Origin: a virus
DNA length: 24,849 bases
Reading direction: 5' to 3' (one strand)
IMG/VR virus record: IMGVR_UViG_3300043395_001520
Span: 1 to 24,849 of that record
Of this stretch, positions 1,199-23,323 are shown piece after piece. Position 1 is the stretch's first letter. Each line of letters begins with the position of its first letter. Made by a program: the position numbers and the translations under genes. The notes under the pieces were generated by a model. That model was not told the DNA's origin, did not search any database, and saw only the letters and a program-made list of their open reading frames with translations.

Positions 1199-1420
1199 AG
1201 GGTTGGGTTTTTAGCGAGAGGTGCGAAGTTAGATAATGAAACGACCAGCGACCGTAAGGGAGCGTATGGGGAGTTTCATACCCTACTCTGTGGCTCGTAG
1301 GGAGGGATAGTAGAAGGAGAGTAGTTGGAATGTAGTTGGAATGTTTGAGGGAGAGTTTTACGGCCAGCAAGTAGGAAGTTTGAGGGCGGGCTGACCTGCT
1401 ATGGCTGGTAGGATACCAAC
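1199..1420. other. Intergenic gap with iteron-like repeats
   Basis: This is the longest non-coding stretch in the left half. It holds two exact tandem copies of the 11-bp unit gtagttggaat (1321-1342), a degenerate third copy at 1310-1320, two copies of gtttgaggg (1343-1351 and 1378-1386), and a small inverted repeat gtatg/catac near 1265-1282. A 66-codon minus frame across it is low-complexity and not gene-like. No convincing promoter was found. Its place beside the helicase gene makes an origin or regulatory role possible. Confidence 0.5.
1310..1342. repeat. 11-bp tandem repeat (about three copies)
   Basis: Two perfect head-to-tail copies of gtagttggaat at 1321-1331 and 1332-1342 follow a diverged copy, gtagaaggaga, at 1310-1320. 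The 11-bp period is close to one helical turn, as in binding-site arrays (iterons). The location immediately downstream of the replicative helicase gene is the only hint of function. Confidence 0.6.
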
Positions 1421-2770
1421 CTATACCGCAAAACGCCTTGGCGACCCCTTGGCGGGGCTGGAAACGCTATCCTGTGGGACGGCTAGGGTCGAGGTTCTAC
1501 GCTCCCAAGCGATGCGTCCCTGCTCCCGGGCGTGGCGGAGGGGGATGGCGGAGGTGTAGTTGCCTTGGTCGTCCTTAAGGCCGGCACGGCCACCGCGCTT
1601 GGGGATGCGTAGGGTGTAGAACGGCTGCTCATCGGCTCCCTCGGCGGTCGGGTCTTTGGTCAGGACCATGACGGCCCGGTGCCAATTGGCGAGTTCGGCT
1701 GAGCCAGAGCCAGCGTAGGCGAGGTCGGCGAGGGAGTTCGACTTATCCTTGGCGGGTTTGGTCGTGTGGTGGACGGAGAACAGGACCACCCCGGTGTCTT
1801 GGAGGACGGGCTGGATGATGTGGCGCAGGAAATGGGACGCGGCCTCCTGATCGGAAAGGTCCACGCCGGCGAACCCGAGGATGGGGTCGACCCAGACTAG
1901 GTCGGCCTTGTGGCGGGTCACGAGCTCACGGAGGAGCAGCCCGAAAGCCTCGCCTGTCCGCACGGCCTCGCGGTAGTAGAAGACGCGGTCGGCCAGTTGG
2001 TCGATGATCTGCGAGCCTCGGGCGATGCCCATGCCGTCGAGCGTCCCTTGGATGCTTTCGGCCACGTCCATCTCGTCGTTCTCGGATTGAATGATGACCG
2101 AGGTCAACGGACCCTTGCGGGACTTGATGCCGAAGAAGTCATGCCCAGGAGCGAGGGCGAGGGACAGGGCTGCGTGGGTGACGAGGGCGGACTTGCCCGC
2201 CCCTGTCTGCGAGACGAGGAGGCAGGAACCGCCACGGCAGAGGAAGCGGTTGCCTAGGACGCAGGAGGGGTCCTGCTCTTTATCGCTGGCGACCATCGTG
2301 CGGAAGTCGAAGGCCTGTGAGGTCTCCTTCGTCGGCTGGCCCTTGCGCCGTGCCGCGTTTTTGGCAAGTTGCTCTTGGGCGAGGAAAATGGCCTCGGGGT
2401 CGGCACCTGCTTCACCGATGATGTTGAGGACGGCCCGAGCCTGTTCTGCCAGTTTGCGTAGGTTAAGGGCTTTAATCACCGCATCGCTCCAAGCCTTGTT
2501 CGGCTGGATGAATTGCCCGGTCGTTGATAGGTCCGAGACGGCGAAGGCCTCGACAGGTGAGCCAAGTTCGCGGAGGCGCTGCGTGACCGTCAGCTCGTCA
2601 GGAGTCGTGCCTTCCTCGGTCAGGCCAACGATCGCGGAGGCGATGTCCTGATTGGTCGGCTCGAAGAAGTCGGAAGGGATGAGGCCGTCGGGCAGCGGGA
2701 GCCCTTGGGCGATGGAGACGGCTAGGATATGCCGTTCCGCGTCTAGGGCGGAAGGTGGTGGTTGTTCCAT
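1421..2770 (-). CDS. DnaB/RepA-like replicative helicase ATPase
   Basis: 449 residues. Residues ~7-110 resemble the DnaB N-terminal helical domain (ALDAERHILAVSI ... FFEPTNQDIASAI). The RecA-type ATPase core shows a Walker A at 187-194 (SQTGAGKS), a hydrophobic Walker B at 290-297 (DLVWVDPI), SVHHTTKP at 332-339 and AGSGSAELANWHRAVMVL at 353-370, which is typical of the RepA/AAA_25 group of hexameric helicases. It would unwind DNA at the phage replication fork, or act as a primase-helicase partner; no primase was seen in the window. The ATG at 2770 lies 27 bp after the winged-helix gene, with the leader CCCCAAACCTCCAAGCC and no Shine-Dalgarno. The C-terminal 25 residues are Ser/Pro/Arg-rich and look disordered. 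Confidence 0.9.
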   Translation of the reverse strand: MEQPPPSALDAERHILAVSIAQGLPLPDGLIPSDFFEPTNQDIASAIVGLTEEGTTPDELTVTQRLRELGSPVEAFAVSDLSTTGQFIQPNKAWSDAVIKALNLRKLAEQARAVLNIIGEAGADPEAIFLAQEQLAKNAARRKGQPTKETSQAFDFRTMVASDKEQDPSCVLGNRFLCRGGSCLLVSQTGAGKSALVTHAALSLALAPGHDFFGIKSRKGPLTSVIIQSENDEMDVAESIQGTLDGMGIARGSQIIDQLADRVFYYREAVRTGEAFGLLLRELVTRHKADLVWVDPILGFAGVDLSDQEAASHFLRHIIQPVLQDTGVVLFSVHHTTKPAKDKSNSLADLAYAGSGSAELANWHRAVMVLTKDPTAEGADEQPFYTLRIPKRGGRAGLKDDQGNYTSAIPLRHAREQGRIAWERRTSTLAVPQDSVSSPAKGSPRRFAV

Positions 2771-2797
2771 GGCTTGGAGGTTTGGGGACTAAGGTGG

Positions 2798-3061
2798 TTA
2801 ACGTTTCTTTGGTCGAGCCTTTTCGCAGTAGTGGGCGGTCGGGTAGGGGCGGGCGTCCTTCCGGCAGGTGACGAGGAACGACTTCTTTTCCATGAGCCCG
2901 ATGTCGACGGCCTTGTGGATATACTTGGTCGCCATCGTGCGGGAGACGTCCCAGCGCTTGGCCCATTGGTCGATGGTATGGTAGCCAGGAGGGACGGCCT
3001 CGGGCTTGCGGTGGATTGCCGCCATGACCACGGCGAGCAGCGGGTCGAGTTTGCGCTTCAT
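2798..3061 (-). CDS. Small winged-helix-like DNA-binding protein
   Basis: 87 residues. The start at 3061 is chosen because its ATG overlaps the TGA of the metallophosphoesterase gene (ATGA at 3058-3061); a longer frame upstream is ignored. Residues 27-64 read as a winged HTH: YHTIDQWAKRWDVSRTMATKYIHKAVDIGLM followed by a short basic strand. The C-terminus is basic (EKARPKKR). It immediately precedes the helicase gene, so a replication initiator-like or helicase-loading accessory role, or local transcription control, is possible. DNA binding is inferred from the fold pattern only. Confidence 0.8.
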   Translation of the reverse strand: MKRKLDPLLAVVMAAIHRKPEAVPPGYHTIDQWAKRWDVSRTMATKYIHKAVDIGLMEKKSFLVTCRKDARPYPTAHYCEKARPKKR

Positions 3062-3813
3062 GGGGTGAAGGTCTTGAGTTCGGTCTGCCAGATCCAGACG
3101 CCGCCCATCTTGTGGACGAGCCACGCCTTGTAGTCGCCGCCCTTGGTCACGAAGCCGGCGACGAAGCCCGAGCCCCAGCGGGAGGTGGCTAGGCGGTGGG
3201 ACGCGTAGTCCATCTCGTCCTTACGGCAGAGGCACCCAGCTGAGAACGCGTTCCCGCCTCCGTGCTTGGTCAGGGCGATGCTGGCGAGGTTGTGGGTGTG
3301 GCCGTGGATGAGGGCACCGCCAAAGGGAGCGTAGTGAAGCCCCTGGACGACCGTCGCGTTGGCGCCGTGGGCGTAGCCGTGGACCATCGCCACCGGGCCG
3401 AGGCGGTAGACGCCCTTGTCGGCGTGGTATGGTAGGATGACCTTCGCCCCGTTCTGTCGAGCGACGCGGTTGATGCGGGCCTTCAGGTCGGTGCAATAGT
3501 CTCGGACGATGGCCTGTCCGTGGCCCTGCATCGTGTCTAGTCGGTGTTCATGGTTGCCCCAAAGGTAGACGTCGGGCTTCCAGCGGGCGAAGAACTGCTC
3601 GCCGGCCTCGATGTCGAGCTGCAGGGATTCGGCGCCTTCCTTATCGGAGCCCACGCCCTTGCGGAGCGAACGGAAGTCATAATGGTCACCGCCCGCGATC
3701 TTTAGGTCTGGCTTGAAGTCCTTCGTGAACTCGTAGAGGGCGGACAGGCTTTCCGGGTCGGCCATGTCGCCGTGGCTGTCCGAGGCGAAGATGAACTTGG
3801 TCAGGCGGCTCAT
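3058..3813 (-). CDS. Calcineurin-like metallophosphoesterase
   Basis: 251 residues with a full set of metallophosphoesterase motifs: D12-x-H14 (SDSHGD), GGDHYD at 41-46, GNHEHR at 86-91, VHGYAHG at 144-150 and HGHTHN at 170-175. These supply the residues that bind two metal ions in this superfamily, so an active phosphoesterase is expected. The substrate cannot be read from the sequence: DNA ends, nucleotides or phosphoproteins are all known for the family. Both ends overlap neighbours by ATGA (start with the HTH gene, stop with the winged-helix gene), giving tight coupling inside the replication cluster. Confidence 0.92.
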   Translation of the reverse strand: MSRLTKFIFASDSHGDMADPESLSALYEFTKDFKPDLKIAGGDHYDFRSLRKGVGSDKEGAESLQLDIEAGEQFFARWKPDVYLWGNHEHRLDTMQGHGQAIVRDYCTDLKARINRVARQNGAKVILPYHADKGVYRLGPVAMVHGYAHGANATVVQGLHYAPFGGALIHGHTHNLASIALTKHGGGNAFSAGCLCRKDEMDYASHRLATSRWGSGFVAGFVTKGGDYKAWLVHKMGGVWIWQTELKTFTP

Positions 3814-4361
3814 ACGCTTGGGGACTTTGGCATACCGCGAGGCACGCCGAACTTCTCGCGGTGAGCGATAAACTTGAGCCCTTGGCGGACGGCCGCGTTA
3901 TACATCCCTGGAGCGCTGAAGCCGTATTTCTCGGCGGTCTCCTTGGCGGTCAGCCCTTCGGCGATGCCTTTGGCTGCGGCATCAGCCATCGTAATGCGTC
4001 CCTTCGCCAGCAGGTTGGCGTGTTCTTCGTTTAGGCGGTGCGTGTGGGTCGTACCTCGTCCCCACTCCAGACGGCGCCGACAACCGGGCGGCCAGATGAT
4101 GCCGTGACGGCAGACGAAGGCCTGTATGGTCTTGAGGCTGACATTGCCAATCTTGGCGGCGTCCTCGGGCGTCCACGATCCACGTATGGCCTCGCGTATG
4201 GAGCGGGCGATATGCTTGTCCTTCGGGTCTTTGAAGTCGTCGACCCGGATATGCGGCTTGCTGTCATAGTGCGGGCAGGTGGCGAGGAAGCGGAGGCGGT
4301 CGATTGAAACCCCCCATGCTCTCGACATCTCGGCCAGCTCGTCGTCGGTGGGGGAAGGCAT
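3810..4361 (-). CDS. Double HTH-like DNA-binding protein
   Basis: 183 residues with two HTH-like stretches: ~61-87 (SWTPEDAAKIGNVSLKTIQAF then a Cys/His segment CRHGIIWPPGCRRR) and ~135-163 (GLTAKETAEKYGFSAPGMYN). The pattern resembles phage regulators or homing/transposase-type DNA-binding modules without a catalytic domain. The stop overlaps the metallophosphoesterase start (ATGA), and the start lies 5 bp after the coiled-coil gene. The specific role is unknown; a regulator of the replication cluster is one guess. Confidence 0.75.
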   Translation of the reverse strand: MPSPTDDELAEMSRAWGVSIDRLRFLATCPHYDSKPHIRVDDFKDPKDKHIARSIREAIRGSWTPEDAAKIGNVSLKTIQAFVCRHGIIWPPGCRRRLEWGRGTTHTHRLNEEHANLLAKGRITMADAAAKGIAEGLTAKETAEKYGFSAPGMYNAAVRQGLKFIAHREKFGVPRGMPKSPSV

Positions 4362-4366
4362 AGGGG

Positions 4367-4651
4367 CTAGAACTTGTCGGACTCCTTGGCTTGCTTCCAG
4401 ACTTGGCGGACCGCGAAGCCGTCCTCGGTCGGGTCAAATTCTCCTAGGTGTTCGTCGAGGGCGTTCCCGGCCTTGATGAGGACGTCGATGCCGTTGCGGT
4501 AGCGGTTGAGGTCGACCATCGAGATGACGACCCATTGGCCTTCCTCGGTCATCTTGAGGACTTGGGAGAGTTGGAGGTTCAGCGCGTTGACCTGCTCCAA
4601 CTGCTTCTCCAGTTCCTCGATGCGTTCCTGCTTGGTGGGCTTCTTGCTCAC
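4367..4651 (-). CDS. Small coiled-coil protein
   Basis: 94 residues. Residues 5-35 form a clear heptad-type coiled coil (KQERIEELEKQLEQVNALNL), followed by a mixed region ending in FAVRQVWKQAKESDKF. No family is recognised. It starts with GTG, in the overlap GTGA with the stop of the kinase gene (4648-4651), so it is probably expressed by coupling. Oligomerisation is the only property the sequence supports. Confidence 0.7.
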   Translation of the reverse strand: MSKKPTKQERIEELEKQLEQVNALNLQLSQVLKMTEEGQWVVISMVDLNRYRNGIDVLIKAGNALDEHLGEFDPTEDGFAVRQVWKQAKESDKF

Positions 4652-5214
4652 AGTTGCAGGTGCTTGGCGACCGAGGCGGCGACCTCGCGGATCGTCACGG
4701 CGCTGTTGGGCTTGAAGTGGTAGGTCTGGTCGGGGATGACGCCCTCGAGCATCTCGCGGATGCTGGTGGCCTCCTCGTCGTTCGCCGGACCGATGCCTTC
4801 GGTCTCGATGTGCAGGTGGATGGTCCTCCAGCCTCGGATTTCGCCCATCAGCTGCTTGGTCACGACCACCTCATTGATGTAGCGGGTGTCGGTGACGACG
4901 ACGTGGCCACGCTCACGCTTGGCGACTTCGGTCAGGTTGTAGATGAAGACGTCCTTATGGATTGACCGGGCGAAGCGACCCATGGCGACGAGCGTCTCGC
5001 GGTTCTGGGCCTTGAAGGTCTCTTCGTGGAAGTTCACCGACAGGCCGAGGTTACGGGAGAACTCATTGGCCGCGTCCTTGAGGGCGTCCGCGAAGGCGAT
5101 GCGTCTAATGGCGTTGCTGTAGCGGGTCATCCCTTCCGCGAAGGTGTCCTTCCCGCTGCGGGCGTAGCCGGAGAGCAGGACGATGGTCTGCGGGGCCTTG
5201 AGGTTCGGGCGCAT
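4648..5214 (-). CDS. Deoxynucleoside monophosphate kinase-like P-loop protein
   Basis: 188 residues from ATG 5214, 2 bp after the preceding stop; a frame extending to 5310 is rejected because it overlaps the upstream gene. Walker A lies at 16-24 (GYARSGKDT), with the GKDT form typical of dNMP/adenylate-type kinases. VVVTDTRYINEV at 105-116 matches the D-x-R-x-x-NE element of the T4 gp1-like dNMP kinase family. It would phosphorylate dNMPs to dNDPs in the cytoplasm, feeding phage DNA synthesis or handling modified nucleotides. No modified-base synthesis gene accompanies it here. Confidence 0.85.
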   Translation of the reverse strand: MRPNLKAPQTIVLLSGYARSGKDTFAEGMTRYSNAIRRIAFADALKDAANEFSRNLGLSVNFHEETFKAQNRETLVAMGRFARSIHKDVFIYNLTEVAKRERGHVVVTDTRYINEVVVTKQLMGEIRGWRTIHLHIETEGIGPANDEEATSIREMLEGVIPDQTYHFKPNSAVTIREVAASVAKHLQL

Positions 5215-5216
5215 GG

Positions 5217-5642
5217 TTACCAGTCGGTCGGGGTCGGGATGGTTGAAGCGGCTACGCCTTTGCCCTTGGGGAAGTTCAGCTTGTATTTGTATTGGGGCTT
5301 GCCCTGCCACTCGCCGTCGGGAGTCACTTCCACCTCGACCTCAAAATAGACATTGGTCGCGGGGCGGAGGTAGTCCAGGAACGCCGGCACGGAGAGGTCG
5401 GCCTTGGGTTCGCTGACGTACTTCCCGCTGATCTTGCCGACGAGCATGGCGAGGCTCTTGCCGTACTTCGTGCCGTAGGACTTGGAGAAGCAGAGCCCTT
5501 CGGCCGTCTTGAAGAACAGGCGGGCGGACACGCCGTCGTCGTAGACCTTGACCTTGTCCTCTTTGGGGAGGGACAGTTTCAGGACATACTTGCCGGTCTT
5601 GTCGATGGTGGTGAGGGGCGGGCGGTCGTTTTGGTTTTCCAT
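5217..5642 (-). CDS. Hypothetical beta-rich protein of the replication cluster
   Basis: 141 residues, with alternating hydrophobic strands (GKYVLKLSLPKEDKVKVYDD, GVSARLFFKT, NVYFEVEVEVTPDG, PQYKYKLNFPKG). Unrecognised. Phage proteins of this size and strand pattern next to recombinases and nucleases are sometimes single-stranded DNA-binding proteins, but no OB-fold motif can be shown. The ATG at 5642 has an A/C-rich leader (CTCCTAACCCACAACCCAC) and no Shine-Dalgarno. It begins the run of genes leading to the helicase. Confidence 0.7.
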   Translation of the reverse strand: MENQNDRPPLTTIDKTGKYVLKLSLPKEDKVKVYDDGVSARLFFKTAEGLCFSKSYGTKYGKSLAMLVGKISGKYVSEPKADLSVPAFLDYLRPATNVYFEVEVEVTPDGEWQGKPQYKYKLNFPKGKGVAASTIPTPTDW

Positions 5643-5654
5643 GTGGGTTGTGGG

Positions 5655-5813
5655 TTAGGAGATGGTGCGCTTGGCCTTGCGGAACTGACGGCCGGAGATG
5701 CCCAGGGACTTGCGGACCTTGCGGGGCTTCACGCCGTTCTTGAGCAGGTAGGCGACGTCGACGTAGGTCTGCTCGCGGACCTTGCGGGCGTGGAGGTGTT
5801 GGGTGTATGGCAT
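5655..5813 (-). CDS. Small basic HTH-like protein
   Basis: 52 residues from ATG 5813, four bases after the nuclease stop (TAACCCGATG); an upstream in-frame extension overlaps the nuclease gene and is rejected. Residues 18-50 have an HTH cadence (VDVAYLLKNGVKPRKVRKSL then GISGRQFRKAKRTI) and the protein is very basic. DNA binding is likely. It may be a small accessory factor of the recombination genes or a regulator. Confidence 0.7.
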   Translation of the reverse strand: MPYTQHLHARKVREQTYVDVAYLLKNGVKPRKVRKSLGISGRQFRKAKRTIS

Positions 5814-5817
5814 CGGG

Positions 5818-6651
5818 TTAGGCGAAGTTGATGGGGGCGATGGCGGCGGTCGACTGCGGGCGGGCAATCGTGATCACCTCGGTCGGGTAGGCGGGCCACT
5901 CATTGAAGGACTTGCAGACCTCGTAGGCCTTGATGGCGGAGAGCATCAGCGTCTGGCCTTCGGCGATGAGGTCGGGGTGCAGTTCGAAGACGGCGGTCAG
6001 GAACGGCGCCTCCTTCTCGACAACGAGGAAGCGGAAGCCCTTGGGACGGACGCCTCCAAAGTTCAGTTTGCAGAGTTCGAGGTACCAAGCGGCCTGCAGT
6101 TTGAAGTCGTCCGACCAGATGAGCTGACGACCGAAGCCCTTGGGCGTGGCCTCCTCGGCGGTGGTCTTGATGTCGTAGAGGTAGCCGTCCTCCGCGATCA
6201 GGTCGAGGGAGCCCTTGATGGGCACCATGTAGTCGGCCTTGAGCATCACCTCGGTGGCGACCGGGACGATGTTATAACGGGCCATGGCTTGCTTCAGCGC
6301 GTCGGCGTAGGAAAGGGCGCTGTCGTACTCGTCGGCCTTGCAACGGATGTCGTCGGGCTGGAGGGTGGACGCCCAGTAGGCGTGGACTTCCTTGCCTTCC
6401 TTCGTGCGCTTGTCGACCTCGGGCTCGGGCTTGAACTTGGCGAAGGCCTCGGGGTCGAGGACGGCGGCGTGGGTCATGATGCCTTCACGGAGGGCCTTGG
6501 AGTCCTTGCGAGGATTGGCCTTGTCGTGGGCGTACTTCGCCGGCGCCTTGAGGAGCAGTTTGGCGGAGGTCTGGTTGAGGGCGTCGATGGCCTCGTACTC
6601 CTGGCGGGTGCGGGCGGCGAGTTTGCTCTGGATTTCTTCGTAGTGATACAT
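5818..6651 (-). CDS. PD-(D/E)XK exonuclease, RecE/exo VIII-like
   Basis: 277 residues. Motifs in order: LREGIMTHAAVLDP with H61 (54-67), E134, GSLDLIAEDGYLYDIKTT with D150 and D160-I-K162 (147-164), and QAAWYLEL with Q186 and Y190. This is the arrangement of the PDDEXK nuclease fold found in exodeoxyribonuclease VIII and related phage exonucleases. It would resect double-stranded ends to give the single-stranded DNA used by the ERF protein encoded just upstream. The ATG at 6651 has leader CCACCAACCCACCAAAGCC and no Shine-Dalgarno. Confidence 0.88.
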   Translation of the reverse strand: MYHYEEIQSKLAARTRQEYEAIDALNQTSAKLLLKAPAKYAHDKANPRKDSKALREGIMTHAAVLDPEAFAKFKPEPEVDKRTKEGKEVHAYWASTLQPDDIRCKADEYDSALSYADALKQAMARYNIVPVATEVMLKADYMVPIKGSLDLIAEDGYLYDIKTTAEEATPKGFGRQLIWSDDFKLQAAWYLELCKLNFGGVRPKGFRFLVVEKEAPFLTAVFELHPDLIAEGQTLMLSAIKAYEVCKSFNEWPAYPTEVITIARPQSTAAIAPINFA

Positions 6652-6677
6652 GGCTTTGGTGGGTTGGTGGGAAAGGG

Positions 6678-7016
6678 TTAGAGGACTTCGTCCGTGCTGT
6701 CGACGATGTTCTCCAGGTTATTCAGCGTGCCGTTCATCCCCTCGGCCTTCTCGTGGAGGTTCTGGACGGAGACGAGCAGGGCGGCGAGGTCGGCCCGGAC
6801 GATGTTAAGGCGCTCGCGCAGCTCGATGAGGTCCTCGGGCTCCTCCAGTTTGGCAGGGTCCGTGATCGCGAGGACGGAGAGCAACCGGGACAGGTCGGTG
6901 GAGATGCGGGTGATGTCGTACTGTGTGACGAAGTTGGTCTGGTAGGACTCCAGTCCTCGGGCTTCGTTGGATAGGCGACGCAGGGTGGCTGCGAGCGTGT
7001 CGGGTTTGATGGTCAT
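6678..7016 (-). CDS. Hypothetical helical protein
   Basis: 112 residues from ATG 7016, which overlaps the preceding TGA (ATGA, 7013-7016). The same frame is open to 7331, but that extension is Arg/Pro-rich shadow of other genes and is not used. The protein is mostly helical with two coiled-coil-like stretches (LEEPEDLIELRERLNIVRAD; SVQNLHEKAEGMNGTLNNLE). No family is recognised. It is the last of five chained genes after ERF. Confidence 0.75.
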   Translation of the reverse strand: MTIKPDTLAATLRRLSNEARGLESYQTNFVTQYDITRISTDLSRLLSVLAITDPAKLEEPEDLIELRERLNIVRADLAALLVSVQNLHEKAEGMNGTLNNLENIVDSTDEVL

Positions 7017-7282
7017 CGTTTGAGGGTCTTGGCTTTGGTTAAGGTCACTTCCTTGACGGCCGTCGGGGAGCAGATGAAGACGCGGACGTTGGAACGGTAA
7101 AGGGTCGGGAGGGTCTCGTCGCTCCAAGCCTTGAGGGCTTTCTCGAAGGCGATGGCGGTCTTGGCGGTGGCCTCGACGTAGAGCATGGAGTCCAGCAGGA
7201 TGACCAGGGCGAAGGGCTTGCCCTTGTCGCGGAAGGCTTGGGTCGTCTTGTAGACGCAGGATGGGACGGATTTCGGCGTCAT
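7013..7282 (-). CDS. Hypothetical small alpha/beta protein
   Basis: 89 residues from ATG 7282, chosen because it overlaps the preceding TGA (ATGA, 7279-7282). Two hydrophobic strands (KPFALVILLDSMLYVEATAK; NVRVFICSPTAVKE) flank a helix (IAFEKALKAWSDETLPTLY). Unknown family. Coupled by overlap at both ends with its neighbours in the recombination module. Confidence 0.7.
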   Translation of the reverse strand: MTPKSVPSCVYKTTQAFRDKGKPFALVILLDSMLYVEATAKTAIAFEKALKAWSDETLPTLYRSNVRVFICSPTAVKEVTLTKAKTLKR

Positions 7283-7617
7283 CTTGGGAAGAAAGAGCGT
7301 GCGGAGAGCCAAATAGGGGTAAGATAAACACTTTTTTTGTTTATCTTGTCGGCGACCGTCTGGCTGACGGCGTCGATGACATAGGCGTTGCCGTCTTTCT
7401 CAAACGTCGCCCCGGTCATCTCGCGGATGTGCTTGGCTTGCTTGGACAGGATGACCGCGTCGAAGTCCGCGAGTTCGACCTCGGCCTGTTTCATGTCCTG
7501 GATGGCGAACTGCCGGATGGCCTCGGTCTTGACGATCCACATCAGCACGATGGTCGAGTCGGGCAGGATGACGTTGATAGGCTGACAGGCGCCGAGCTTG
7601 GATGTCGTGGAGGTCAC
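7279..7617 (-). CDS. Hypothetical protein with AT-rich 3' end
   Basis: 112 residues from a GTG at 7617 inside a GTGA overlap with the upstream coiled-coil gene. The middle looks alpha/beta (DSTIVLMWIVKTEAI, DFDAVILSKQAKHIREMTGA). The C-terminal part is coded by a perfect AT-rich inverted repeat (7321-7347) and reads KINKKSVYL followed by TPIWLSARSFFPR. No family recognised. The AT-rich end contrasts with the GC-rich neighbours. Confidence 0.65.
   Translation of the reverse strand: MTSTTSKLGACQPINVILPDSTIVLMWIVKTEAIRQFAIQDMKQAEVELADFDAVILSKQAKHIREMTGATFEKDGNAYVIDAVSQTVADKINKKSVYLTPIWLSARSFFPR
7321..7347. repeat. Perfect 10-bp AT-rich inverted repeat inside a gene
   Basis: aagataaaca at 7321-7330 and tgtttatctt at 7338-7347 are exact inverted copies around a 7-base loop (c plus six t). 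It is an AT island in a GC-rich region. No U-tract follows on either strand, so it is not a standard terminator. On the coding strand it includes a run of seven A. Confidence 0.75.
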
Positions 7618-8087
7618 GGCTGGCCTCCCTTGGCGGAGTTCAACGCATCCTTAAAGGCAAGCGATGCTGTCCTAGCCATAAGTCGAGCGTCCTCATTAGC
7701 AAACATAGCCAGCCTATCCATAGCATCAGAGTAGGCATCCCCCGCCTTGGTCAGCCGCTCGACCTCGGCCTTGAGGCGGGCGTTCTCGGCTTCAAGCCGG
7801 GCAATCGCGTCCTTCCTGTCCTTATGCAGACCACCAGAGTCCACGTTGTCTTGATACATTTTGAAGCCAACTTGTGCGAGTGCGTTCTGTTCAATCTGAA
7901 GTCGTAGGCTTTGCTTGAGTCGATCATTCTCGACCGACAGCGTCCAGACCACCCCATCCGACTTCTCAAGGTCGGCTTTAAGTTGGTCGCGCTCGGCCTT
8001 CAGATTGGCCAATTCGCCCTTCAGCGCCATCAGCTCGTTGGACTGATACAGGGCGTTCACCGCGTTCTGGATGAAATCGTGGCTCAT
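7614..8087 (-). CDS. Coiled-coil protein downstream of ERF
   Basis: 157 residues with two coiled coils: ~20-62 (ELANLKAERDQLKADLEKSD) and ~95-125 (ARLEAENARLKAEVERLTKA). No catalytic motif seen. The ATG overlaps the ERF stop (ATGA, 8084-8087) and its own TGA overlaps the next GTG. Parts of the gene (about 7640-7740 and 7840-7960) are visibly less GC-rich than the flanks. Probably an oligomeric accessory of the recombination module, but this is inference. Confidence 0.75.
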   Translation of the reverse strand: MSHDFIQNAVNALYQSNELMALKGELANLKAERDQLKADLEKSDGVVWTLSVENDRLKQSLRLQIEQNALAQVGFKMYQDNVDSGGLHKDRKDAIARLEAENARLKAEVERLTKAGDAYSDAMDRLAMFANEDARLMARTASLAFKDALNSAKGGQP

Positions 8088-8671
8088 TTGGCGGCGTTGC
8101 GGACGGCCTGTTCAAAGGCGTGGTTGGTGAGGACGGCGGCCTGTTCCGAGGACAAGTCCTTGAGGCCTTGTCCAGGCTTAAGCCAGCCCTTGGTGATCAG
8201 GATTTCCACGGCGGCCTTCTCGTACTTCAGCTCGCCCATGAAGACCTTCGGGGCTTGGGGCTTGGGTGCGGACGCCTGATGGCCGTCGTCGTCGAGGTCG
8301 ACCGAGATGCCGCAAGCCGTCTGGATGGACTGCCGGCGGATGTAGGTGATGGCACCACCGACCTGTTGCGCCGTGAGGCCGTCGGCCTTGACCATCAGTT
8401 TCCCGAAGGAGAAGAGATGGCCGGACGAGTGCAGGAACGAAGTGGACACGCCGACCTTGCCTTCCTCGGTCTCGAGGACTTGGACGAGGGCGAGGTTATG
8501 TTCCTTCAGGACGGGCTTCACCGCGTCGAGCAGGGCGTCGAGCGAGACGTAGCGGGCCTTGAAGGCGGGGTTCAGTCGGTTGGCCCCGACGTTCTCCATC
8601 TTGGCGAGGGCGCCGATCAGGTCGAAGTAGGGATTGGTCTGCTCCTGGGGAGCGGTTTCTTTTTTGCTCAT
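8084..8671 (-). CDS. erf: ERF-family single-strand annealing protein
   Basis: 195 residues. The ERF core spans ~14-130: PYFDLIGALAKMENVG, NPAFKARYVSLDALLDAVKP (34-53), LTAQQVGGAITYIRRQSIQT (99-118) and the closing CGISVDLDDDG. The rest is a Pro/Ala linker and a helical tail that probably contacts partners. ERF proteins anneal complementary single strands in phage recombination and genome circularisation. The ATG at 8671 is preceded by CCAACCCAACCCACACAAGCC without a Shine-Dalgarno. The gene heads the overlap-linked module that ends near the PD-(D/E)XK nuclease. Confidence 0.92.
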   Translation of the reverse strand: MSKKETAPQEQTNPYFDLIGALAKMENVGANRLNPAFKARYVSLDALLDAVKPVLKEHNLALVQVLETEEGKVGVSTSFLHSSGHLFSFGKLMVKADGLTAQQVGGAITYIRRQSIQTACGISVDLDDDGHQASAPKPQAPKVFMGELKYEKAAVEILITKGWLKPGQGLKDLSSEQAAVLTNHAFEQAVRNAAK

Positions 8672-8702
8672 GGCTTGTGTGGGTTGGGTTGGTGGGAAAA
8701 GA

Positions 8703-8921
8703 TTAGGGGAAGGTCGTCATCTCGTCGATGGTCTTCTGGGAGATGCAGCGCAGGTGGTTGTCGTGGGACAGGAACCAATAGCGGGTCTGCCCGGCGAGGC
8801 GGGGCTTCAGCTTGCGGGCCACCGTGCCGTCGGAGAGGACGATGTAGGACGAGCCGTTGAGTTCGCGGTAGGTCGCAGGTGCTTTGGCTTCGGGATTGGT
8901 CTTGGTTTGTTTCTTGAGCAT
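8703..8921 (-). CDS. Small hypothetical protein before ERF
   Basis: 72 residues: a Lys-rich N-terminus, then YRELNGSSYIVLSDGTVARK and RYWFLSHDNHLRCISQKTIDE. The SDGTVARKLKP turn resembles short NUMOD-like modules associated with DNA-binding nucleases, but the match is only by eye. The ATG at 8921 sits 7 bp from three GTTAAG boxes spaced exactly 10 bp apart, a likely control site. Confidence 0.65.
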   Translation of the reverse strand: MLKKQTKTNPEAKAPATYRELNGSSYIVLSDGTVARKLKPRLAGQTRYWFLSHDNHLRCISQKTIDEMTTFP

Positions 8922-8928
8922 AACAAAT

Positions 8929-8954
8929 GTTAAGGAATGTTAAGTTTGGTTAAG
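8929..8954. promoter_or_regulatory. Three GTTAAG boxes at exact 10-bp spacing
   Basis: gttaag occurs at 8929-8934, 8939-8944 and 8949-8954 on the plus strand (CTTAAC on the coding strand), 7 bp upstream of the ATG at 8921. The one-turn phasing puts the sites on the same DNA face, as for operators or curved DNA. A fourth copy lies in the hairpin at 9046-9051. Confidence 0.6.
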
Positions 8955-9039
8955 TTGGAGTTCCCGGCCGCTGCAAGACTCTCACTTGCTTCATCATTCG
9001 TCACGCACCTATTTACTAGTATTGATGCGCTTCTAGTGA

Positions 9040-9059
9040 TGCCGGGTTAAGACCCGGTG
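9040..9059. other. Short GC hairpin
   Basis: ccgggt (9042-9047) and acccgg (9052-9057) form a perfect stem around the loop taag. On plus-strand RNA two further G-U pairs extend it; on the coding strand these become A-C mismatches. No U-run follows, so it is not an intrinsic terminator, and it does not complete a tRNA. Confidence 0.45.
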
Positions 9060-9095
9060 CTTCGTAGGTTTCAGCTCTATGCGGCTTTATCCGTT

Positions 9096-9407
9096 TTAGG
9101 GATTGGGAACGTAAGGGTTTAGGTCGGTGATGCCGTGTCCAAGTGCGACCCTGGACTGGTATCTTTCAAGAATAAGGCCTTGGACGTAGGATTGCAGGAT
9201 GCCACGAGAGATGCAGACTTGTCCAATCTTGTGTAGGTCGACATCGACGATGGCGTGTTGTTTGTAGCCCTTGTAGGTCGTCCAATCGATGCGATAACGG
9301 ACGCACTGCATCTTCCGTTTGATTGAAGTAATCAGATGGGCGTAAATAGGAAGGTCAATGCCGTCTATGCGGATTGAACAATAGAGCTCTGGCTTCCTTG
9401 AAAGCAT
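9096..9407 (-). CDS. Hypothetical protein of lower GC
   Basis: 103 residues, unrecognised: MLSRKPELYCSIRIDGIDLP, then KRKMQCVRYRIDWTTYKGYKQ and DVDLHKIGQVCISRGILQSY. The strand-rich start and basic middle suggest a compact nucleic-acid or protein-binding domain, without a motif to name it. It starts 2 bp after the resolvase stop. The gene is visibly poorer in G+C than its neighbours, which suggests separate origin. Confidence 0.65.
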   Translation of the reverse strand: MLSRKPELYCSIRIDGIDLPIYAHLITSIKRKMQCVRYRIDWTTYKGYKQHAIVDVDLHKIGQVCISRGILQSYVQGLILERYQSRVALGHGITDLNPYVPNP

Positions 9408-9409
9408 CG

Positions 9410-9880
9410 TCAGTTGATGGCACCGCGTTTGGCGGCGTCAAGGATGAGGAGGGCGTCGGCGTTCCAGAGGGTCACGTCCTCGTCGGGGAAGAGTTCGGCC
9501 GCTCGGGCCTTCAGGACGTTCTTCCATTGGGTGCCGGTGCGGTCGCCCTTCGTGCCGACTGGGTGGGCCTTCATCCAGATCGCGGGCTTCACGCGGTGGA
9601 CCTCCCAGCCCATGCCGATGGCGGCGCCGTAGAGGATGCCCGTGTTCCACATGAGCTTACCGATACTCGACCCGGGCACGGCCTTGCCCGCGAAGAGCGG
9701 AGGCTCCTCAAGGTAAAGGACCACGCGGCCTTTGGCTAGGTGGATGTCCTTGATGAGGTTCACCACGTCCCAATCGGTGCCGGGCATCTTGTGGACCTCG
9801 GTGGTGCCTTCGGACGGGGTGAAGACGGCGATGCCTCCGTTTACTCCAGGGTCGACGGCCACGATGGTTGGCTTGTTCAT
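9410..9880 (-). CDS. RuvC-like Holliday junction resolvase
   Basis: 156 residues with an RNase H-like fold signature: VAVDPGVNGGIAVF with D10, a second strand ending VVLYLEEPP with E58/E59, and NADALLILDAA with D142 and D148 near the C-terminus. These four acidic positions are the metal ligands of RuvC-type resolvases. It would cut branched recombination or replication intermediates before packaging, partnering ERF and the exonuclease. The start overlaps the transglycosylase stop by one base (TAATG). Confidence 0.85.
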   Translation of the reverse strand: MNKPTIVAVDPGVNGGIAVFTPSEGTTEVHKMPGTDWDVVNLIKDIHLAKGRVVLYLEEPPLFAGKAVPGSSIGKLMWNTGILYGAAIGMGWEVHRVKPAIWMKAHPVGTKGDRTGTQWKNVLKARAAELFPDEDVTLWNADALLILDAAKRGAIN

Positions 9881-10320
9881 TATTTCGAGCGCGGGTCTCG
9901 GTTAATCCGAGCGACCACGATGCGAGTGATGGCTGGGCAACGGCGTAGGTCAAACCCTTTAGATTTGAAACCAGCGAAGCCGAGCTGATGGGCGGCGTAG
10001 ACTTCGCCGATCGTGGGCTTCCTGCCCAGCGCCGTCGTCAGCCTGTCCTCAAGGTAGGTCAGCCAAGAGGTGGCGTATTCCCGCCCCACGCCCGCGTCCG
10101 TGGACCAAGTGCCGTACCCGTAGGTCGGAAGGCCGTGGCGGGCACGCCAGAGGGTCGTATCGGCCCACGCAGCGGGGAAGAACTGCAGGAGGCCACGCTC
10201 GCCCAGTCGCCCGATGGCGTTGGGGTTGCCGGAGGACTCGACCTGAATGACGGCCTCGACCTGTCCAGGGGTGATGGCTTGCAGGGAGGCGGAGGCCAGA
10301 AGGATGGCGAGGAGCCTCAT
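9880..10320 (-). CDS. Secreted lytic transglycosylase (endolysin candidate)
   Basis: 146 residues from ATG 10320, which overlaps the preceding TGA (ATGA). A short signal peptide-like start (MRLLAILLASASLQA) is followed by an SLT/goose-lysozyme-like domain: VIQVESSGNPNAIG with catalytic E28, GERGLLQFFPAAW at 40-52, and EVYAAHQLGFAGFKSKGF at 106-123. It would cleave peptidoglycan glycan strands in the periplasm. It is the only murein hydrolase seen, so it probably acts as the lysis enzyme, although it lies about 3.5 kb away from the holin genes. Export by the signal would make it partly holin-independent. Confidence 0.85.
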   Translation of the reverse strand: MRLLAILLASASLQAITPGQVEAVIQVESSGNPNAIGRLGERGLLQFFPAAWADTTLWRARHGLPTYGYGTWSTDAGVGREYATSWLTYLEDRLTTALGRKPTIGEVYAAHQLGFAGFKSKGFDLRRCPAITRIVVARINRDPRSK

Positions 10321-10631
10321 CGTCCGTCGATGCTGGGGTGGACCGAGCCGGCGTCCTTCTCGCCGTTGCGGTCGACATAGGACCAAGTCAGCAGGGCACG
10401 GCAGCCGGTGGTGAGGTTCGCGTAGATCGTCACGGCCTTGCATCCGTGGGACAGGCGGAGGTTGTCCTCGGCGATGGCGGCGCAGAGCTGGATACGCTCG
10501 CGGGCAAACTTGTCGGTCCAGTCGCCCTGCAGGACGCGGTCGCGGGCGTAGGCAATCTGGTAGGACAGCCCACGGATGACGTGGGAAGGCGAAGCCAGCA
10601 TATCGGGGAGGTGGGACATGGGGTCGGGCAT
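10317..10631 (-). CDS. Hypothetical protein before the transglycosylase
   Basis: 104 residues, or 100 if the second Met (10619) is used. Contents: HVIRGLSYQIAYARDRVLQG, a helical middle (FARERIQLCAAIAEDNLRL) and AVTIYANLTTGCRALLTWSY. No family recognised. ATGA overlap with the transglycosylase suggests joint expression. The leader is CCCAACCAAATAATCCC with no Shine-Dalgarno. Confidence 0.7.
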   Translation of the reverse strand: MPDPMSHLPDMLASPSHVIRGLSYQIAYARDRVLQGDWTDKFARERIQLCAAIAEDNLRLSHGCKAVTIYANLTTGCRALLTWSYVDRNGEKDAGSVHPSIDGR

Positions 10632-10635
10632 GGGA

Positions 10636-12234
10636 TTATTTGGTTGGGTTGTTGAGGGAAAGTTCTACGCGGGCGATTTGCTCGCCGATCCAGCGCATCA
10701 CGGGGACGGCCATCGAGTTGCCGGCGCACTTGTAGCGTGGGCCGTCTGGGCATTGGTCGGCGGGCTTGCCCTTCCAAGGGATTTGCGACCAGTTGTCTGG
10801 GAAGCCCTGGAGTCGCTCGCACTCGACAGGAGTTAGGCGACGGACGGCCATAGGTGCTTGGGGAGTCAAAACGGCTCCGTAATGATTGACGTCAGATGCA
10901 GAAGACGAAAGAGCTTGGTTGGTGTTTGCTACGCTTTGATTATAGGTATCAAAAGCAATAGGGTGAACAATATGCGGCATCTGGTCGCCCATAGTAGCCT
11001 TGAGCGTAGTGGTCGCAACGGTCGATGGGTCAGCACCAGCCTCGCGCGGGAGGTTGCCGGGCTGGAAGGTGATGGCGTCCACCACCGCGTGGGTAGGATA
11101 AGCCACGGCGTGTTTGTCGCCTTGTGTTAGAGTATTCATTGGGTCGCCAGGCTGGCCGATGCCAAGGCCGTTGCCTTTGCCGTCCTGCTTATTGCCGTGC
11201 TTTCCGGCAAAACGAGTAGCTTGATCGTGAATAGGGATTACCGGCTCAACCACCGCGTGGGTCGTGCGGGTGTCGCCGAGGTCGAAGTTGTTGAGCGTGT
11301 TGCTCGCATCGGCCACGACCCAAACTTCATCATCCGTAGTTGACTGCGCCCGCTTGGACTTGCGGAAGGGGACACCGACGGCGTGCGGGCCGCGGGCAAC
11401 CAGCGAGTCCATCACGTCAGTCTGCTCGATGTGCGGTTCGTACTGGGCGTTCTCGCCTTGATTGAAAGCGGCCCGGTCGATGACGACGGGCTGTTCATGC
11501 GGAATCAAACGCCCTGTGTAGGCGTCTTGTCCAGAGTATGCTCCGGGGTGGGCGTCGGCGCAGAGGGTTCCGACAGTCCTTGGCAAGCCTGCCTCAACGC
11601 CTGCTCCAGCATCGGCGGCAGTTGTTTGCCCCTTCTTTCGGCGCGGCGCAGGATTCCAGCACACGCTTTCGGGCTTAAGAAGAACCGAGGCGGCAACGTC
11701 CCGACCTCCAAGACTTGCGACAACGAAGACTCGACGACGGCGTTGGGGAACTCCGAAGTATTGAGCGTCCAAGACCCGGTAGGCCCACCCATACCCGAGC
11801 TGTTCCAACGCCCCGAGGAAGGAACCAAAGTCCCGTCCTCCGCCCGATGACAGGACGCCAGGGACGTTTTCCCAGACGATCCAGCGGGGTTTGAGCTTAT
11901 CAGCGAGTCCAAGAAAGACGAGGGCGAGGTTGCCGCGGGGGTCGGCGAGTCCTTTGCGGAGGCCGGCGACGGAGAAGGATTGGCAAGGTGTTCCTCCGAC
12001 CAGAAGGTCGATTGAATCGGGTTCGATGGGCCAGGATTGGTATTCGGTGAGTGAGCCATAGTTTGGTGTGTTGGGAAAGCGGTGTTTGAGGACGGCGCAG
12101 GGGAAGGGTTCGATTTCGGAGAAGCCGACGGCCTTCCAGCCAAGGGGTTCCCAAGCTACGGACGCGGCTTCCATGCCGGAGCAGACGGAAAGGAAACGAA
12201 AAGGGACTTGAGGGGTTGATGGTTGGGTGGTCAT
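10636..12234 (-). CDS. DNA cytosine-5 methyltransferase (Dcm type)
   Basis: 532 residues from ATG 12234. Motif I is FLSVCSGMEAA (14-24); motif IV is GGTPCQSFSVAG with catalytic C84; motif VI is WENVPGV (121-127); motif VIII is FGVPQRRRRVFVV (160-172); the C-terminus holds RRLTPVECERLQGFPDNW and motif X GNSMAVPVMRWIGE. A long variable insert (~180-455) with short repeats (THAVV and similar) separates the catalytic part from the end, as in many phage Dcm enzymes. It would methylate cytosine C5 and protect phage DNA from host restriction; no nuclease partner is seen. The frame stays open about 97 codons further upstream, see the separate entry. GC dips at about 10860-11010. Confidence 0.95.
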   Translation of the reverse strand: MTTQPSTPQVPFRFLSVCSGMEAASVAWEPLGWKAVGFSEIEPFPCAVLKHRFPNTPNYGSLTEYQSWPIEPDSIDLLVGGTPCQSFSVAGLRKGLADPRGNLALVFLGLADKLKPRWIVWENVPGVLSSGGGRDFGSFLGALEQLGYGWAYRVLDAQYFGVPQRRRRVFVVASLGGRDVAASVLLKPESVCWNPAPRRKKGQTTAADAGAGVEAGLPRTVGTLCADAHPGAYSGQDAYTGRLIPHEQPVVIDRAAFNQGENAQYEPHIEQTDVMDSLVARGPHAVGVPFRKSKRAQSTTDDEVWVVADASNTLNNFDLGDTRTTHAVVEPVIPIHDQATRFAGKHGNKQDGKGNGLGIGQPGDPMNTLTQGDKHAVAYPTHAVVDAITFQPGNLPREAGADPSTVATTTLKATMGDQMPHIVHPIAFDTYNQSVANTNQALSSSASDVNHYGAVLTPQAPMAVRRLTPVECERLQGFPDNWSQIPWKGKPADQCPDGPRYKCAGNSMAVPVMRWIGEQIARVELSLNNPTK

Positions 12235-12526
12235 AGGATTTGGCTTAATGAAAGGTTGTTGTTGGCGGGCTTCGTGGACGGCCTTGATTTCCTCAAGGGC
12301 TTCGTCGGAGCAACCGCCTCGGCTGCCTTTGCAAGTCGTGATCGTAGGGGAGATGATTGGCTTCATAGCGCAGATGAACTGGTCTTGGGTGCTGGCGATG
12401 GTGAAGGTCTTGTCGATGTACCACAAGGCTCCAGTCCCGCCTTTCTCATTGGGGCGCACGGCTCCGCCCTTTGTGCCGGAGTAGTTCCCCCCCCACGGAC
12501 CTTGAACGCGATAGGCAGCACAATGA
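12235..12526 (-). other. Open in-frame segment upstream of the methyltransferase
   Basis: The methyltransferase frame is open back to a TTG at 12576. From about 12520 it reads like coding sequence (GNYSGTKGGAVRPNEKGG, then LWYIDKTFTIASTQDQFI, then PTITTCKGSRGGCSDEALEE). The FTIASTQDQ piece resembles parts of the variable insert of phage Dcm enzymes, from memory. A run of eight G (12487-12494) lies near its start, and another frame before the run reads LPIAFKVRGG, which also looks Dcm-like. It could be a longer N-terminus, a remnant of a second enzyme, or a separate gene broken at the run. Confidence 0.5.
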
Positions 12527-12637
12527 TTAGTAGCGGGGGTTGTCGATGATCTCGATGACGTTGGGGCCGTCCGCAAGGGCGAGGACGAGCAGCGTCAGGG
12601 CGGCGATGGCGAGGAGGATGAGGATGAGGCGGGTCAT
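12527..12637 (-). CDS. 36-residue single-span membrane peptide
   Basis: Starts at ATG 12637, four bases after the preceding stop (TAACCCAATG), and ends with TAA at 12527-12529. Residues 1-22 form one hydrophobic helix after an initial MTR (LILILLAIAALTLLVLALA); the polar tail reads DGPNVIEIIDNPRY. Size and form match small phage membrane peptides of unknown role; a holin- or inhibitor-like function is possible but not shown. Confidence 0.6.
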   Translation of the reverse strand: MTRLILILLAIAALTLLVLALADGPNVIEIIDNPRY

Positions 12638-12641
12638 TGGG

Positions 12642-13187
12642 TTAGATGGCGAAGTGGGCGATGATTTCAGCGTCGGTCATTTCGGCGATGAGGATGGTGA
12701 AGCCTTCAACCTTGCGGGCAACCTCGATTGCTTGCGGTCGGTTGAGGTCGTTCACGCCCTTGATGCTGCGATAGGAACCTTTGCCGACCTTGTCGGTGAG
12801 GAACCAGACGGACTTCACGGCGTCCTTGCGGATTTTAGCGACTCGCTTCTTCTGGGCATCCGCTCGGTCACGACGCTCGACGGCGATGTCGATGAGGTTG
12901 TCGAAGGTGAAGCCAGAGTCGGCTAGGAACTCCCAGCCTTCCACATCGGTCGGGCTGATGGACTTGGCGAACGCCTCGGCGGTCACGCGAGCGGCGTCGT
13001 TCACATAGTGGATGAAGGTGCTACCGCCGTGACCTTCGTTGGACGCTTCGCCAATCGCCTTGCCGTCGATGCAGACGATGGCGGTGAAGCAGATGGTTTC
13101 CTCGCTCATCCACTTGACGGTCTTGAAGGACTTCAAGGTGAGGCGCGAGAGGTTGTGGGCGGTGGTGGTGTTGGCTTGGGTGGTCAT
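12642..13187 (-). CDS. Hypothetical protein of the early operon
   Basis: 181 residues, unrecognised. The N-terminal half has strands (ETICFTAIVCIDGKAIGEAS) and a GHGGSTFIHYVND turn; the middle is helical and charged (VERRDRADAQKKRVAKIRKD); the end reads ARKVEGFTILIAEMTDAEII. The ATG at 13187 has the leader CTCACCCAACCCAT and no Shine-Dalgarno. It is second in the operon behind the promoter near 13480. Confidence 0.75.
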   Translation of the reverse strand: MTTQANTTTAHNLSRLTLKSFKTVKWMSEETICFTAIVCIDGKAIGEASNEGHGGSTFIHYVNDAARVTAEAFAKSISPTDVEGWEFLADSGFTFDNLIDIAVERRDRADAQKKRVAKIRKDAVKSVWFLTDKVGKGSYRSIKGVNDLNRPQAIEVARKVEGFTILIAEMTDAEIIAHFAI

Positions 13188-13211
13188 ATGGGTTGGGTGA
13201 GCCTATGAAGA

Positions 13212-13427
13212 TTACTCGGCTTCCTGGCCGTTGATGCATTCGGTCATCGTGTGAGCAGTATCACCGAACACCAGCATCGATGCTTCGTTTTCAATCGCGT
13301 CGGCTTTATCGACTGCACGGTTATATCGGAACGAACCGTATTCGTTGCGATCACGAATGGCGATTTGGTTGTGCCACTTAGCAGACAGTTCGATGATTTT
13401 GTTTTGGATTTCGGCGGTGGTGTTCAT
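13212..13427 (-). CDS. Small hypothetical protein, first gene after the promoter
   Basis: 71 residues from ATG 13427: MNTTAEIQNKIIELSAKWHN, then RDRNEYGSFRYNRAVDKADA and an acidic end. Helical, no family. An upstream in-frame ATG (13451) would be at or before the expected transcription start of the promoter at 13455-13482, so 13427 is preferred, giving a leader of about 20 bases that ends CACCAAGCC. First-in-operon position would suit an early host-takeover protein; this is inference. Confidence 0.65.
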   Translation of the reverse strand: MNTTAEIQNKIIELSAKWHNQIAIRDRNEYGSFRYNRAVDKADAIENEASMLVFGDTAHTMTECINGQEAE

Positions 13428-13454
13428 GGCTTGGTGTATTGGGTACGCCATTGA

Positions 13455-13482
13455 GTTATGAGGTCTTTAGGTCTCACGTCAA
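13455..13482 (-). promoter_or_regulatory. Sigma-70-like promoter
   Basis: On the minus strand TTGACG (13477-13482) and CATAAC (13455-13460) are separated by 16 bp, matching 5 of 6 and 4 of 6 consensus bases. It lies between the convergent ends of the lysis region and the early operon and would start transcription near 13448. The region upstream is AT-rich compared with the genome. Confidence 0.65.
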
Positions 13483-13489
13483 CACCTTT

Positions 13490-13502
13490 CTAAACTATTT
13501 AG
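13490..13502. promoter_or_regulatory. 13-bp palindrome next to the promoter
   Basis: ctaaa-cta-tttag is a perfect 5-bp inverted repeat around 3 bp, centred about 14 bp upstream of the -35 box on the minus strand. This is a place where activators or repressors commonly bind. Confidence 0.5.
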
Positions 13503-13599
13503 CAAAACCCCCATTTGGACACTTTACCCCCCTTTAGTTGGCAAAGGAAGCCGACCGAGGGTGGTTATGGAAACCCACATTAGACCCCCTTGGCTTGCC

Positions 13600-17672: not shown

Positions 17673-17697
17673 GGTCTAACCTTGGAGGGGGGTCAAA

Positions 17698-18543
17698 TCA
17701 GACGAGGATTTCAGCGGTTCGGGTCAGGCCGCCACTGTTGAAGTTCTTATCATAGCCCGTCCAAGAGCCGGACCAATCGTCGTTCTCGGCGGAGTTAAGC
17801 GGCCAGTCGATGTCGGGGGCGTCGTCTCCGGCCTCGTAGTCCAGCTCGCCGTAGAAGTGGACGTTGTTCGGCATATACAGCGACCCGATGAGGTGCTGGG
17901 TGATGACCCAGCCGGTGGACAGATACCAGTTGAGCGAAGCGACCTTGATGCGTTGGCAGTTGTAGCGCTTGATGGCGCCGTGGAAGGATTGGACTAGGCC
18001 GCCGTAGACCACCTCGGTCGGGGTCGTGATCTCCACGGACTGTGTTTGGCGGATGATGTAATATTCACGCAGGTCGCCGTGCTGGCCTGAAGTGTTCCAG
18101 GGCTTGCTCTTGGTCTCCGCGTCCGAGCCGTCGGCCATCACCGCTAGGAACGGCTTATCCACATATGAACCCTCGCCTCCGCCATCGCGGTTGCGGATGA
18201 GGTAGACGCCCCAGGAGTCCGTGCCGTCGTTATCGGCGTTGGCGATTTCCACGTCACCGCCTTGCGAGCACCAGACGCTGGTGGCATCGGTGCCGGTGGT
18301 CAGTTTCCCGGTCGGATAGACCGCGAAGCCCTGCACGTCGTATTCCAGCGTCATCGTCGTCGGCATCGCCGTCAGGGCTTGGGCGACCACGCGGCCCTTG
18401 GCGACCATGACCTTGTCGCCGACCATCTTCACCTTGAACTGCTCGGGGCCGTATTCCTTCTGCGGAGGGAACAGGATTTCCAGCGAGTCACCATGAGGCG
18501 ACTGGACGAGGTTGTAGCCGACGCCGGGTTGGAGTTCGCCCAT
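17698..18543 (-). CDS. Minor tail or baseplate protein, unknown
   Basis: 281 residues, beta-rich, with aromatic and acidic patches (GELDYEAGDDAPDIDWPLN, AENDDWSGSWTGYDKNFN). Unrecognised. Order (after the tape measure, before fibres) puts it at the tail tip or baseplate. The ATG at 18543 follows the previous stop by three bases (TAACCCATG). Confidence 0.7.
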   Translation of the reverse strand: MGELQPGVGYNLVQSPHGDSLEILFPPQKEYGPEQFKVKMVGDKVMVAKGRVVAQALTAMPTTMTLEYDVQGFAVYPTGKLTTGTDATSVWCSQGGDVEIANADNDGTDSWGVYLIRNRDGGGEGSYVDKPFLAVMADGSDAETKSKPWNTSGQHGDLREYYIIRQTQSVEITTPTEVVYGGLVQSFHGAIKRYNCQRIKVASLNWYLSTGWVITQHLIGSLYMPNNVHFYGELDYEAGDDAPDIDWPLNSAENDDWSGSWTGYDKNFNSGGLTRTAEILV

Positions 18544-21424: not shown

Positions 21425-21457
21425 AGTTGGTTCTTAACCTTGGGGGTTTAGTCAACC

Positions 21458-23262: not shown

Positions 23263-23286
23263 GGCGGTCTAACCTTGGCAGGGGGT

Positions 23287-23323
23287 AAAAACAAAAGACC
23301 CCCAAGGTTGCCCAAGGGGGTCT
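23287..23323 (-). terminator. Intrinsic terminator after the capsid gene
   Basis: On the coding strand AGACCCCC pairs with GGGGGTCT (8 bp), followed inside by a T/T internal loop, two G-C pairs and a GCAA loop, and then a T-rich tract (TTTTGTTTTT). It sits about 30 bp after the capsid stop and would lower transcription of the tail genes relative to capsid. Confidence 0.85.

Follow-up and report, generated by a model that had tools for sequence, protein, structure and literature searches.

Short repeated sequences directly before start codons are known from Cluster K mycobacteriophages, whose start-associated sequences (SASs; GGGATAGGAGCCC) contain a Shine-Dalgarno (SD) core and are essentially absent from the host (PMC3203893). 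Among bacteria, Bacteroidia, Akkermansia, and Verrucomicrobia IMCC26134 are SD-scarce and have a conserved CCUCC (PMC10783764), and Flavobacterium uses a Kozak-like start context in which A is favored at -3 (PMC6847099). An extended SD, which is not obligatory, is reported before rpsU of many Flavobacteriales (PMC9976891). ACA motifs act as enhancers of initiation, activity without an SD is cited for an ACAA repeat, and S1 is the suggested reader of such sequences (PMC3879156). How start codons are chosen in bacteria that keep the anti-SD and do not use SDs is an open question, for which the compact leader described here offers a short natural element to test.

We analyzed a 24,849-bp IMG/VR virus fragment (the window), whose main genes all lie on the minus strand, as do all features given below, and encode a major capsid protein, a tape measure protein, an ERF-family single-stranded DNA annealing protein (8084–8671), an exonuclease VIII-like/DUF3799 PDDEXK protein (5818–6651), and a DnaB-like replicative helicase (1421–2770). 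One compact C/A leader stands before unrelated genes of this phage family, in a presumed host group with the same type of leader at its ribosomal genes. Like a Cluster K SAS, it contains a short asymmetric repeat that adjoins ATG in a single orientation, in the non-structural half and before differing gene families; unlike an SAS, it lacks an SD, includes a long C/A tract, and has similar counterparts in the inferred host family (PMC3203893). Because the leaders are C/A-rich with AAGCC and have no SD, we do not class them as Cluster K SASs. The SD-less starts recall the SD-scarce bacteria, as may the canonical CCTCC in the two 16S tails that were readable, although the leaders here are C/A-rich (PMC10783764). 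With the ACA and CA enhancers they share the form of a C/A-rich, single-stranded element 5′ of the start with loose positioning, but the Salmonella yifK enhancer acts together with an SD, which the phage leaders do not have (PMC3879156). As proposed for Flavobacterium, the start context together with low structure would substitute for the SD, whereas at -3 the phage motif carries G, not the A favored in Flavobacterium, followed by C at -2 and -1 (PMC6847099).

C/A-rich leaders at starts of the window

An earlier note on this DNA had claimed that leaders ending in CAAGCC or AAAGCC adjoin the ATGs at 13427, 8671, 6651, and 2770, and reading the minus strand bore this out at all four. Start 13427, which opens a 71-aa ORF (13212–13427) with non-homologous ORFs at the same position in relatives, is preceded by acccaatacaCCAAGCC, and its 30-nt leader (AACTCAATGGCGTACCCAATACACCAAGCC; 13428–13457) is near-invariant in relatives despite the differing downstream ORF. 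The ERF start at 8671 is preceded by ccaacccaacccacaCAAGCC (leader containing tcttttcccaccaacccaacccacacaagcc; 8672–8702), the exonuclease start at 6651 by ccaacccaccAAAGCC (leader containing ccctttcccaccaacccaccaaagcc; 6652–6677), and the helicase start at 2770 by ccccaaacctCCAAGCC (leader ccaccttagtccccaaacctccaagcc; 2771–2797); in both the ERF and the exonuclease leader, 19 of the last 20 bases are A or C. An in-frame ATG at 13451, 24 nt upstream of 13427, is disfavored as the real start: two relatives (L052 and L059) have lost it but keep the remainder of the leader, which makes 13427 the better start and argues that its leader is not N-terminal coding sequence.

A CCCAACC tract had been described at four further starts, 13187, 10631, 5642, and 1198, and this held in part. 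It stands, without AAGCC, at 13187 (acccaacccat; leader ctcacccaacccat-ATG, 13188–13202) and at 1198 (aaaaacccaaccct; leader ctcgctaaaaacccaaccct-ATG, 1199–1218). Before 10631, the tract (10632–10655) lies partly within the last codons of the upstream gene, and 5642 has cccacaacccac / CCCACAACCCAC in place of CCCAACC, in a leader (tctcctaacccacaacccac-ATG; 5643–5662) that is G-free, as are the leaders of its ortholog family. Overlapping genes lack the AAGCC motif, as the note had stated.

The association of the motif with starts is far above chance. AAGCC occupies -5 to -1 at 5 of 41 starts against 0.13 expected (binomial P = 2e-7); the fifth of these, at 21052, is a weak TTG start. A CCCAACC or CCAACCC tract is present within 35 nt of five starts (background 0.0085, P = 2.5e-5). 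In a 0.49-Mb set made up of the window and its relatives, 55 sequences in all, the coding strand carries 127 copies of AAGCCATG and the opposite strand a single one (4.7 expected), a 27-fold excess over the Markov expectation; for CCAACCCA, the strand counts are 116 to 1 against an expectation of 22. Where the gap upstream of a start is at least 9 nt, the sequence before the start is G-poor, with a mean of 2.1 G per 20 nt versus 5.3 in the background and 0 of 20,000 resamples as low, and the base composition before window starts outside overlapping gene pairs is A.29, C.42, G.11, T.17. An exact search of all viral contigs for the 15-mer CCCACACAAGCCATG gave 37 matches, which may be about the chance level for a collection that large, and these were dropped as evidence.

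Leaders in related phages and in the inferred host family

The motif is conserved in related phages, where it is strand-specific, adjoins ATG, and stands before non-homologous genes; among the 55 relatives, AAGCCATG precedes many non-homologous genes and separate gene clusters. At the position of 13427, a near-identical 30-nt leader, with TTGACG upstream, stands before five unrelated ORFs that have no mutual BLASTP match. The leaders of ERF and exonuclease orthologs consist of a near-pure A/C tract of variable length and order that runs into AAGCC or ACGCC. More distant orthologs change to CCCACC-ATG or AAACCT-ATG, still without an SD, and distant ERF relatives have TAATCTCCCACC-ATG or AATAAACCT-ATG instead, likewise SD-less. 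In a contig of an uncultured Opitutae metagenome-assembled genome (MAG), the orthologs carry CACACC, CCACC, or TTCC before ATG. Thus, a G-poor, C-ending class of leader is widely conserved, with AAGCC as a local consensus.

This contig (L096) shares synteny with the window across about 20 genes and may represent a provirus or else a virus contig that was binned with the MAG. An ERF profile matched one genome contig, in the Opitutae MAG, and found nothing beyond that MAG in 373 genomes of the order. The tetranucleotide composition of the window correlates best with the MAG and a related genome (0.81 and 0.78 for G001 and G334, versus 0.29 for E. coli), and the only match of the major capsid protein, a weak one, is to Verrucomicrobia phage P8625. 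Opitutae (Verrucomicrobiota) are the most likely hosts of the phage, as judged from binning, synteny, and composition.

A comparison with leaders of the host's ribosomal protein genes, which the earlier note had called for, revealed the same SD-free, G-poor C/A type in the family inferred as host (A.26, C.43, G.10, T.22; C at -1 in 68%), in a sample drawn from related genomes and hence non-independent. One such leader ends in CCAAAGCC-ATG; others read CTCACC-ATG or CTTACAAACCACACA-ATG, and one rplV leader reads CTTTACCAAAGCC-ATG. In AT-richer members of the family, leaders contain more A and in some cases purine runs, and leaders taken genome-wide, where start calls are less reliable, point in the same direction and are only mildly C/A-rich. 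In P8625, an Opitutae phage that has been isolated, the leaders at upstream gaps of at least 9 nt contain 12% G versus 27% genome-wide.

The rpsU leaders of Opitutae share this composition (one reads CAACCAACACAACCCAACTGAC-ATG), and an SD was absent from those of the host family that were read, which sets them apart from the rpsU leaders of many Flavobacteriales, for which an extended SD is reported (PMC9976891). Protein bS21 is encoded in 73 of the 79 family genomes, and bS21-dependent sequestration of the anti-SD in the host is possible by analogy with Bacteroidia, the presence of bS21 alone being no proof of it. At three rpsU loci of the clade of G001 and G334 (L285, L281, and L284), CTCGACCCTCCAACTGCCAAC-ATG recurs across genomes, with an anti-SD-like CCTCC and no SD.

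Probable initiation without Shine-Dalgarno pairing

The motif leaders had been described as having no SD, and an AGGAGG-type complement is indeed lacking at -5 to -12; strong anti-SD pairing was found at no window start outside overlapping gene pairs. Duplex energies against ACCUCCUUU, computed for the window, phage P8625, and host genomes G334, G020, and G001, are hardly or not at all stronger than those of shuffled sequences, excluding complementarity to the 16S tail, raised in the earlier note, as the mechanism. The E. coli K-12 control (41 starts) gave a mean of -5.8 versus -3.4 shuffled, with 61% versus 31% of starts at dG ≤ -4.5. The 16S tail carries the canonical CCTCC (GGATCACCTCCTTTCT) in one genome of the family (G222) and one of the order (G037); among the 79 family genomes, a 16S was obtained from G222 only, those nearest the phage contig having none assembled. 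An apparent SD in some ribosomal protein leaders (19% at dG ≤ -4.5) seems, by eye, to come mostly from rplX, where GAGG lies within the last codons of rplN. Predicted structure is weak, with a median minimum free energy (MFE) of -3.2 at the four motif starts versus a window mean of -14.5, and an MFE of 0.0 for -35 to +25 of the exonuclease gene.

From these observations we infer a role of the leader in translation and the way in which the ribosome would recognize it. On sequence grounds, we think it likely that the phage initiates translation as its host does, independently of an SD, on a C/A leader that is unstructured and G-poor, with AAGCC-ATG as a start-associated consensus of the phage lineage. 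The block would be the 5′ initiation region of genes that need a fresh, uncoupled start, in an Opitutae host lineage whose genes would largely lack SDs and whose relatives keep a canonical anti-SD where it is readable. A C/A tract of 20–30 nt, almost free of G and with C at -1 and -2, would leave the start region single-stranded; the 30S subunit would then probably land without anti-SD pairing, plausibly via bS1 and the mRNA channel in the manner of ACA/ACAA-type enhancers, and AAGCC adjoining ATG may be the lineage's preferred start context, an SD-less start-associated sequence. Such initiation would provide gene finders with a model of start sites in Verrucomicrobiota and in the phages that infect them.

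The element looks like the host's own mode of initiation because ribosomal protein genes of the host family have the same SD-free C/A leaders. AAGCC-ATG is clear only at genes of the non-structural module, however, and the structural genes of the window have other leaders, three of them carrying CAAGGTTA; a purely generic host signal therefore fails to explain the repeated exact AAGCC. Of the earlier proposal, a phage-wide start signal or a binding site for an RNA or protein, the start signal survives, whereas its purely phage-wide character does not, given the similar host ribosomal leaders, and a dedicated binder is unsupported. It is rather unlikely that AAGCC-AUG and the C/A tract form a specific element read by a phage factor or by some feature that the Opitutae 30S subunit dedicates to it; if true, such an element would be a distinct alternative to the SD interaction, one that phages would have exaggerated so as to out-compete the messages of the host.

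The same distribution could reflect regulation, with a phage or host protein or a small RNA binding CCCAACCCA..AAGCC and jointly setting the expression of the non-structural genes. This would suit the exact AAGCC repeated at non-structural genes, near-absent on the other strand and placed before non-homologous ORFs, as well as the like distribution of Cluster K SASs and the targeting of C/A-rich leaders by small RNAs in enteric bacteria (GcvB). We consider it quite improbable, however, as the tract varies in length and order while its composition is kept, which is ill suited to precise pairing or a protein site, and host ribosomal genes have the same composition. Nothing pointed to a dedicated RNA or protein that binds the leader, and a phage-encoded antisense RNA was rejected, the anti-leader sequence TGGGTTGG being absent from the coding (transcribed) strand of the window.

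Very little probability falls to the leaders being conserved module boundaries, short homologies for recombination and gene exchange with translation as a by-product: differing ORFs do stand behind one near-identical 30-nt leader at the 13427 position, and the phage encodes ERF and an exonuclease, but the tracts of these two genes differ in length and sequence between relatives with composition kept, the motif stops exactly at ATG, and host genes have similar leaders. A composition artifact, by which a C- and A-rich coding strand makes intergenic stretches appear C/A-rich, can be practically discounted, for the skew (C over G, A over T) is real, yet the background mean is 11.3 A+C per 20-nt window, with 17 reached in only 0.9% of windows, and both the 27-fold excess of AAGCCATG and the motif counts at starts already contradict it.

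Other leaders and noncoding stretches

Three structural genes have a common leader, CCAAGGTTAGACC(GCC)-ATG or CCAAGGTTAAGAACCAACT-ATG (23263–23288, 17673–17698, and 21425–21445), and CCAAGGTTAGACC-ATG also precedes orthologs of two of them (L201, L210/L218, L198, L202, and L220). The AAGG within CCAAGGTTAGACC, a few bases 5′ of ATG, could be a weak SD. A 532-aa ORF (10636–12234) resembles a DNA cytosine methyltransferase when its sequence is read by eye.

Between the structural and early modules lies a noncoding stretch of ~170 nt (13428–13599) that retains 77–95% identity in many relatives and is probably an early promoter region. It includes TTGACG (13479–13484), a candidate -35 element 5′ of the 13427 leader, which is conserved in relatives and was missed by a sigma-70 consensus scan that found no promoter excess. 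The 222-nt noncoding stretch at 1199–1420 is C/T-rich with ATTCCAACTAC repeated, and its conservation among the fetched relatives amounts to 24 nt in one of them (L004). A third noncoding stretch, of 174 nt (8922–9095), is missing from most relatives and conserved over 147 nt at 97% in two (L007 and L037). It yielded no credible Rfam match, folds better than its shuffles (z = -2.2), and is possibly a small structured RNA or an inserted element.
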